The notes under the pieces are model-generated. The model did not search any database and had not been told where the DNA came from. It was given only the letters and a program-made list of their open reading frames with translations. A DNA stretch of 64,000 nt, taken from contig NZ_CP075171.1 of NCBI RefSeq assembly GCF_021379005.1, positions 186,001 through 250,000 on the forward strand, read 5' to 3'. This stretch comes from Leptodesmis sichuanensis A121. GTDB taxonomy: Bacteria; Cyanobacteriota; Cyanobacteriia; Leptolyngbyales; Leptolyngbyaceae. Below are positions 20,282 to 64,000 of the stretch, piece after piece (position 1 is the first letter of the stretch; each line of letters opens with the position of its first letter). The position numbers and the translations under genes are program-made.

Positions 20282-20354
20282 TAAACCAAGTCCAGCGAGA
20301 GAACAGTTGTTTTCCGATCAGAGAAACTCCGATTCTGGACGTGGACAAGGGTTA
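20282..20354 (+). repeat. Palindromic element, copy 1 of 5
   Basis: This copy begins TAAACCAAGTCCAG and ends TTCTGGACGTGGACAAGGGTTA. The ends are inverted copies of each other and can fold into a stem. It lies between two divergent genes and is the most diverged copy (CGAGAGAACAGTT in the left inner part). Confidence 0.85.
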
Positions 20355-22915: not shown

Positions 22916-23764
22916 ACGCTTCTACTACAACCACTTTTTACACGACATTGTTCACACACTGACTTACGCAACCTCCTACAGCGGGCATTTTACAGCAGCC
23001 CGAATAGCATCTTGCTCAGCTCAATGATGAATCACGTTGATCTCTTTTACAAGAACTTTAAGAAAAGGGCGAATGTAACCGAAACCAGAAGACCGGATTC
23101 ACTGCTTTTTAGTACGCATGATCTTATCATACCTTGCGTCCTTCTTCTACCATTGTGATTTTCTATAAAAGAATAACCAATACAATTCACCTAACTACGT
23201 AAGATCCATTAACGATGTAAATCAACCCTGTCCAAGTCCAGAACCGTAGTTTCTCCCATAGGAAAACGACCGTTCTCCATCTGGACTTGGCTTATTTTGA
23301 ATAAAACAGGCTCTTCCTGCAGAAAATCAATAAATACGTCAGTGACAAAAATTACCAGCCAGATTAAAATGCTTCATCATCAGCAGGCATCGCTTCATAC
23401 TCAATTGAAACTCCAACTGAATTGGCCGGATTTTATAACAGTCCGTGAGGAGAGTAATGAGTTGTACAGAATTTTCAAGGATTTTTTCAGAAGTGCAGGT
23501 TAAATTTTTTTTATTGGGAATAATGGTTGGCATAGGAAAATCCGACTAAGAGCCAGTCCTTTGATAGTTGCCAACGAAACGATCAGAAATCACGATAGTT
23601 GTTGGTGTAGCTACTGAGTGATGAGTATCGTCTGTTACACAGATCTAAAGTGATTGAACTAGCACAACTTAAAATTGACGTTTTAGGGTATGCTTCCGCG
23701 ACAGGAATGCTTATGCCTTAATGAGGTCACAACCCGAATATTCAGATTGGGCTACTTGACACCG
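22916..23764. other. 849-base region without a convincing gene
   Basis: The region between ssb and the GGDEF gene is AT-rich and carries one palindromic element (23224-23294, reverse orientation). A 68-codon frame at 23297-23503 has no ribosome site and an unprotein-like composition. Promoters for ssb and for the GGDEF gene must lie here. A small RNA cannot be excluded, but no known cyanobacterial sRNA motif was recognised. Confidence 0.5.
23224..23294 (-). repeat. Palindromic element, copy 2 of 5 (reverse orientation)
   Basis: Read on the minus strand this is TAAGCCAAGTCCAG ... GGAGAACGGTCGTTTTCC ... GTTCTGGACTTGGACAGGGTT, matching the other copies. It lies in the long gap between ssb and the GGDEF gene. 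Confidence 0.85.
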
Positions 23765-55289: not shown

Positions 55290-55362
55290 TAAACCAAGTC
55301 CAGCTAGAGAACGGTCGTTTTCCGATCAGAGAAACTCCGGTTCTGGACTTGGACAAAGTTTA
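55290..55362 (+). repeat. Palindromic element, copy 3 of 5
   Basis: A nearly consensus copy: TAAACCAAGTCCAGC at the left and CTGGACTTGGACAAAGTTTA at the right. The 10-base arms CCAAGTCCAG/CTGGACTTGG pair perfectly. Its right end coincides with the TAA stop (minus strand) of the next gene. Confidence 0.92.
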
Positions 55363-60358: not shown

Positions 60359-60501
60359 ACAGCGCAGAAAATACAAAGATGCGCCTTAATTTAGCGGCAA
60401 TCGATCGGAATGTCACAGGAAATCTGAAAATATTTTGGATTTGCGATTTTAGATTGGGAGAGATTGAATGGTGGATGGTAAAGCACTCAAAACTTAGAAC
60501 T

Positions 60502-60574
60502 TAAACCAAGTCCAGCTAGAGAACGGTCGTTTTCCAATCAGAGAAACTCCGGTTCTGGACTTGGACAAGGTTTA
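60502..60574 (+). repeat. Palindromic element, copy 4 of 5
   Basis: A near-consensus copy: TAAACCAAGTCCAGCTAGAG at the left, CTGGACTTGGACAAGGTTTA at the right. It lies 36 bases after the stop of the leftward gene at 60611-61033. Confidence 0.92.
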
Positions 60575-60610
60575 AAACTCAAAACTGCCTCCCATCATCC
60601 CGCCATCCCA

Positions 60611-63144: not shown

Positions 63145-63217
63145 TAAACCCAGTCCAGCTAGAGAACGGTCGTTTTCCGATCAGAAAAACTCCAGTTCTA
63201 GACTTGGACAAGGTTTA
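63145..63217 (+). repeat. Palindromic element, copy 5 of 5
   Basis: The copy begins TAAACCCAGTCCAGC and ends TAGACTTGGACAAGGTTTA. Its last three bases are the TAA stop (minus strand) of the following gene. It starts three bases after the stop of the small OB-like gene. Confidence 0.9.
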
Positions 63218-63532: not shown

Positions 63533-64000
63533 AACACTGATTGCTCCCGAAGCAGTTCGATCAAGGGGTTGGCTTGAAAATGGCGATCGCCCCGGTGTCG
63601 CGATCGCGATTCTTAAACCACCCGCTCTCTATTTGTATTCTATGCTGGCTAGCAGAAAACCCCGACCCATTGATGAGCCGGGGTACCAAATCAGGGTGCA
63701 TCTACCATTAATGCTTTCGTATAAAAGATAACCAGCTCCGGAGGATTTAGACGAAAATCCTTTGAAGCAAGCCTCCTGGTTTTGAAGTTTCGGTAATGTT
63801 TTGATGATTTGGGCCTTCGTAAAGACAGCCCATGCCAGAATTTATGAGAATTTAATTAATATTGATAGTTCCTCTCGTTAGATTTGCTGAATCGTCTCCC
63901 TGGCTCCACAGTAGCCAGTGCTGCTCCACACCCTGATCTAAATTTCTCTATGATGAAGAGGTGGTGTTGCTCTCGTTATTTGTGGGCAAACTGAGAGTAC
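63533..64000. other. Right-end region without a supported gene
   Basis: The 468 bases carry one stem-loop (ACCCCG...CGGGGT, 63659-63684) with no T-run, and short frames that stop quickly. A neighbouring gene probably starts beyond the window. The promoter of the thioredoxin-fold gene lies at the left end. Confidence 0.4.

Follow-up and report, generated by a model that had tools for sequence, protein, structure and literature searches.

A 73-bp palindromic repeat of Leptodesmis sichuanensis A121 is most probably an orphan MITE of the IS630 superfamily

The copy of a palindromic element found at positions 55290-55362 raises the question of whether this repeat is a non-autonomous mobile element (MITE), a REP-like palindrome or a hairpin fixed at its place. 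The window, i.e. the whole 64-kb stretch that was analysed, corresponds to positions 186001-250000 of the single contig (5.35 Mb) of the host Leptodesmis sichuanensis A121. The five copies listed in the initial annotation were all recovered by a profile search of the window (E = 6.6e-18 to 7e-24), and four of them were correctly delimited: copy 1 (20282-20354, + strand; E = 7.8e-21), which measures 73 bp including the TA on both sides and has GGGTTA as its right end, copy 3 (55290-55362, +), which is 99% identical to the consensus, copy 4 (60502-60574, +), which lies within a AAAACTTA-type tandem array, and copy 5 (63145-63217, +). The inverted copy 2 spans the full 73 bp at 23222-23294 (- strand; E = 6.6e-18) and does not begin at 23224; it is an older copy, in which one end TA has changed (TCAACC/GGTTGA). 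The intergenic position ascribed to all five copies holds overall, except for end overlaps in two of them: the terminal TTA of copy 3 serves as TAA stop for the ORF 55854-55360 (-) and that of copy 5 for the thioredoxin-like ORF 63532-63215 (-). Just upstream of this thioredoxin-like gene, a stretch at 63652-63707 (-), similar in the relatives G005 and G013, scores 53.2 bits with the Rfam family NsiR1 (nitrogen stress-induced RNA 1), for which the gathering score is 39.

The family extends over the whole genome. Its consensus is TAAACCAAGTCCAGCTAGAGAACGGTCGTTTTCCGATCAGAGAAACTCCGGTTCTGGACTTGGACAAGGTTTA (73 nt), and a search with this sequence retrieved at least 41 places (40 of the 302 first-look candidates being scored), with 100% identity at five of them. 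Across the whole genome, 169+158 occurrences of the arm CCAAGTCCAG compare with 8+11 of the reversed control, far more than chance would give. In the 2.44 Mb (46%) of the genome that were read for copy counts, 167 copies are present, including 153 full-length ones; 119 of these 153 are exactly 73 nt long, and 92 copies have an identity of 90% or more with the consensus. Extrapolation from these 167 copies gives approximately 370 copies genome-wide, and a covariance model run on the whole host genome counts at least 117. The occurrence of identical copies across the genome shows that the family expanded recently in the host. The grouping of three copies within 8 kb, previously taken as a sign of recent spread, is unremarkable at this density, since 167 copies per 2.44 Mb correspond to about 4.4 expected per 64 kb. 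Viral contigs (searched by exact pattern) and plasmids contained no copy of the element.

The mobile unit is 71 bp long (AACC...GGTT), has TA on either side and has no coding capacity. Its arms are imperfect inverted repeats that reach almost to the centre. In copy 3, the left arm (55290-55325, +) and the right arm (55327-55362, -) are the putative counterparts of the left and right terminal inverted repeats (~36 bp each) of an IS630-family parent, and the dinucleotides TA at 55290-55291 and 55361-55362 (both unstranded) are the left and right copies of the duplicated target, as indicated by the count of copies with TA at both ends and by the empty sites. In 21 diverse copies taken from the host genome, from relatives and from one named contig, columns 5-14 and 54-63 pair in 89.2% of cells, and 24 cells are changed on both sides versus 11.2 in shuffles; an alternative pairing register near the ends (GTCCA/TGGAC) was rejected on its weaker covariation (0.131 vs 0.181). 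This covariation fits equally well a hairpin and two ends kept alike by one transposase. In one copy (G000:C1:378903-378975), the 19 nt at the centre are inverted (GTTTCTCTGATCGGAAAAC) and the arms nearly unchanged, as a hairpin template switch would leave. The commonest end variants among the 153 full copies are TC..TA and TA..GA, with nine copies each, which represent the same A-to-C change at either end.

Insertion takes place at TA. Both ends carry TA in 107 of the 153 full copies, and the target duplication whose search had been suggested is a duplication of this dinucleotide, as deduced from orthologous, in-repeat and nested empty sites; since all targets are TA, a TA duplication is indistinguishable from a unit that carries its own TA and lands beside a TA. 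At an orthologous site, a copy of the relative G009, inferred to be Leptolyngbyaceae cyanobacterium RU_5_1, (L129:4335-4406) reads GACC..GGTT between CTATTCTA and TAGAGCATGAATTC, and the host has CTATTGTAGTGCATGAACTC. A second empty site is provided by the L128 copy, which interrupts another repeat of which an unoccupied relative is present in the host. The empty sites carry a single target dinucleotide at the insertion point. Furthermore, when 71 bp are taken out of copy 4, ...AGAACTTAAAACTC... is restored; the same operation, carried out by eye, leaves unbroken the short AAAACTTA-type arrays that harbour copies at L022, L025, L030 and L034, and removal of a MITE nested in another copy leaves a 73-nt outer element. 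Short tandem arrays with units of the AAAACTTA/AAAACTCA type occur commonly in intergenic regions, where they often harbour MITEs (window ~60480-60600 and many flanks). The target preference is palindromic, ANYTARNT: among 153 copies, G occurs at -1 in two and C at +1 in one, while A is found at -3 in 82 and T at +3 in 99. The enrichment of these bases over intergenic TA sites has p values from 3e-4 to 2e-9 (50 copies).

The midpoints of 53 of 58 copies are intergenic, although intergenic sequence accounts for only 18% of the total. The convergent, tandem and divergent gaps hold 8, 26 and 19 copies versus 9.6, 27.6 and 15.8 expected from gap length; the genes behind these counts were called by a simple script, which may have introduced small errors. 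In several copies, the TAA of TAAACC serves as the stop codon of a gene, hence an overlap of 1-3 nt; a stop codon hit at its TA is still a stop codon after the insertion, because the element brings TAA at its ends.

The syntenic comparison covered the three copies near the end of the window. The gap corresponding to 55290 is without the element in G009, G013, G005, G012 and G011, the gap corresponding to 63145 is without it in G009, G005 and G012, and no copy is present at the position of 60502 in the relatives read. A G009 copy near the latter site was considered as a possible shared position and rejected: it falls on the stop codon of the adjacent gene, whereas the host copy lies 37 bp from that gene, and the G009 copy is thus most likely a separate insertion. 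Together with the RU_5_1 copy opposite an empty host site, these gaps are the empty positions in relatives that had been proposed as a check; the family is neither confined to the window nor found at conserved positions, as fixed hairpins would have been. Compared with the window at 55-63.5 kb (L167, L168), the gene order of G009 is rearranged near 55290 and 60502, where segments of opposite orientation meet next to a copy of the element, and G013 has one inverted gene. A covariance model applied to 42 genomes of the order, with stricter filters by which weak copies may be missed, detected the family in eight: the host (at least 117 copies), G009 (at least 117), G022 (88), G013 (57), G039 (16), G051 (4), G050 (1) and G043 (1). 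This distribution is patchy, with presence and absence even within genera.

A full-length transposase copy with the same ends, another of the proposed checks, was found in the relatives G003 and G019 and not in the host. Genome G051 carries a 123-bp version of the element, the ends of which led to a full-length insertion sequence (IS) bounded by TAAACC and GGTTTA, of 1203 bp in G003 (L291:334-1536) and 1201 bp in G019 (L292:1501-2701). In the G003 copy, an IS630 transposase is encoded in two frames, namely a short helix-turn-helix ORF and a 284-aa DDE ORF; the coding region is further interrupted in a second G003 copy (L293) and in the G019 copy. The transposase matches the NCBIfam IS630 model NF033545 (154.6 bits, cut-off 100) as well as Pfam DDE_3 (PF13358) and PF13592. 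The left arm of the family consensus is identical to the left IS end at 27 of 36 positions (gapped) and the right arm to the right end at 28 of 36, values reached in 0 of 500 shuffles in each case; the G022 right arm reaches 30 of 36. Handedness is kept in these matches and cross-comparisons are mostly lower, and the most divergent copy compared (G039) has no significant match to the IS ends. An end identity of ~75-83% is enough for common descent, without proving that this same IS moves the MITE. In the Nostocales, a plasmid of Aulosira laxa NIES-50 encodes a transposase that is 66% identical and has a similar right end (TAAACCTCGTCTAGGTTGAAACCCGTAGTTTTT). The MITE-rich genome G009 contains a lone IS-type end (L290, G009:C238:6125-6170) that aligns with the G003 IS over 42 nt at 93% identity and is possibly a remnant of the parent IS.

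In the host, no transposase of the parent IS subgroup was detected by a protein search of the whole genome at E <= 1e-15, and no long element with MITE ends was found in 0.84 Mb, nor in 2.44 Mb (46%) of the genome. The multi-copy repeats of at least 500 bp in the host have other ends. The IS630 families of the host, examined through the best 30 of 63 PF13358 matches, were rejected as parents, the ends read beginning with TATAGCC, TATTGCC, CTAGTAG or TATAGCNATCC, unlike TAAACC. In one MITE copy, the terminal TA is the precise insertion point of a different IS630, with TATAGCC ends (L078 1023-1978; G000:C1 near 5016133-5017088). Among the 42 genomes, those in which transposases of the parent subgroup were found are G003, G014, G019 and, with a fragment, G054, and no MITE-bearing genome is among them; as such a non-overlap is expected by chance in ~40% of cases (34 choose 4 / 42 choose 4), it was given no weight. 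The MITE population is therefore an orphan one: neither the host nor the other MITE-rich relatives yielded the parent IS.

Taken together, these data indicate, with a probability of about 0.9, that the 73-mer is a MITE of the IS630 (Tc1/mariner-like) superfamily, made of the two ~36-bp ends of a ~1.2-kb IS and orphan in its host; its palindromic look would result from two IS terminal inverted repeats joined almost back to back. The element has moved in the past, it targets TA, and a matching full-length IS is present in relatives. As in other MITEs, it is short (within 50-500 bp), lacks a transposase gene, has terminal inverted repeats and is associated with target duplication and empty sites; its ends are common to an autonomous element, the 1.2-kb IS of G003 and G019, which are genomes other than the host. 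The parent encodes a DDE transposase of the IS630 type, and insertion at TA with TA duplicated is that of the IS630/Tc1-mariner group. The MITE option of the initial annotation is therefore borne out by the genome-wide family, the TA empty sites and the IS630-family IS with the same ends.

The other option of that annotation, a REP-like palindrome, would make the element a REPIN, i.e. an inverted pair of REP hairpins moved by a RAYT transposase (Y1 family) via a single-stranded intermediate. The element is indeed small, intergenic and hairpin-forming, its arm pairs covary, it is present hundreds of times, each genome having a single lineage-specific consensus, and the host has one Y1 transposase. 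However, this sole Y1 gene (G000:C1:1409564-1409908, L072) has no copy of the element at its locus and is followed by tandem copies of another hairpin repeat (CCCGTCCGCGCAGGCGGACATTGACC.. with GCGATTTCAATCGC), the two together looking like a separate RAYT/REP-like system. The host consensus, ending in TAAACC/GGTTTA, contains neither the GTAG nor the CGTC tag of REP hairpins. A palindromic TA target is a signature of TA-targeting DDE transposases of the IS630/Tc1-mariner type, not of RAYT; insertion at TA in ANYTARNT, unlike single-strand Y1 insertion, and arms that match the ends of an IS630-family IS make a REPIN extremely improbable.

An equally slight probability is given to a fixed, non-mobile feature conserved at gene borders, be it a regulatory hairpin, a terminator or a structured RNA family. 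The intergenic location of most copies, a folding better than that of shuffles (z = -3.75) and the compensatory changes in the arms would all suit such a feature, but gap types are occupied in proportion to their length without context bias, no terminator-like site was found at copy 55290-55362, no Rfam family matched the element, and its positions are not common to relatives and have TA empty sites. It is also very unlikely that the MITE belongs with a different DDE family whose targets contain TA, for example an IS of the IS5 group, and resembles the IS630 ends by convergence. YTAR-like targets are known for IS5-type elements too, and no partner IS was found in the host; against this, the match to the IS630 ends spans ~36 bp with handedness kept, and the two IS5-type DDE_Tnp_1_2 loci of the host are without paired TAAACC/GGTTTA ends.

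As an IS630-type MITE, the element can be likened by description to RUP (Repeat Unit of Pneumococcus), a 107-bp MITE present in 110 copies with ends like those of IS630-Spn1 (PMC3049150): both are non-coding, abundant and able to fold into a hairpin, with IS630-like terminal inverted repeats and a target duplication. They differ in length (73 vs 107 bp), in copy number (~370 vs 110) and in phylum, and the presumed helper IS of RUP is common in the same species, whereas that of the 73-bp element was not found in the host genome. Nezha, as cited in PMC3049150 and PMC3733652, is a cyanobacterial MITE with ISNpu3-like elements as proposed movers; it is also tied to an IS by its terminal repeats, a likeness drawn from its description. 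The Type II MITEs of Anabaena sp. 90 (77-541 bp; PMC3542288) are likewise short, mostly intergenic, hairpin-forming and without a matching IS in the same genome; no parent was identified for them, in contrast to the 73-bp element, for which an IS with the same ends is present in relatives. REPIN/RAYT systems (PMC3116915, PMC3733652) share with it short intergenic inverted pairs, a high copy number and a lineage-specific consensus, and differ from it by its lack of an adjacent RAYT, its TA target and its IS630-type ends. Elements of this kind are thus known, and the 73-bp family looks unreported in the literature searched, which did not include ISfinder.

In the mechanism proposed by analogy with the IS630 family, a DDE transposase acting in trans would bind both arms and excise the 71-bp unit, which inserts at a TA within the palindromic ANYTARNT and duplicates it, as the empty sites show; copies would persist where they do little harm, nearly always between genes. 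The recent expansion could have been driven by a transposase since lost, by one present in a diverged form or by another IS630 enzyme. The MITE occurs in several genera, with a genus-specific consensus and a constant length, and it is conceivable, though rather doubtful, that the lineage outlived its parent, persisted and diversified by switching helpers, using in each host the transposases of other IS630 subgroups present there.

This identification would explain hundreds of puzzling hairpins in one cyanobacterial lineage and avert their annotation as regulatory RNAs or REPs. With parent and derivative known and clean empty sites available, the family could be a tractable case of the amplification of a 71-bp MITE without its own IS in the genome, and the MITE/IS pair may also suit the question of how IS630 enzymes recognize their ends.
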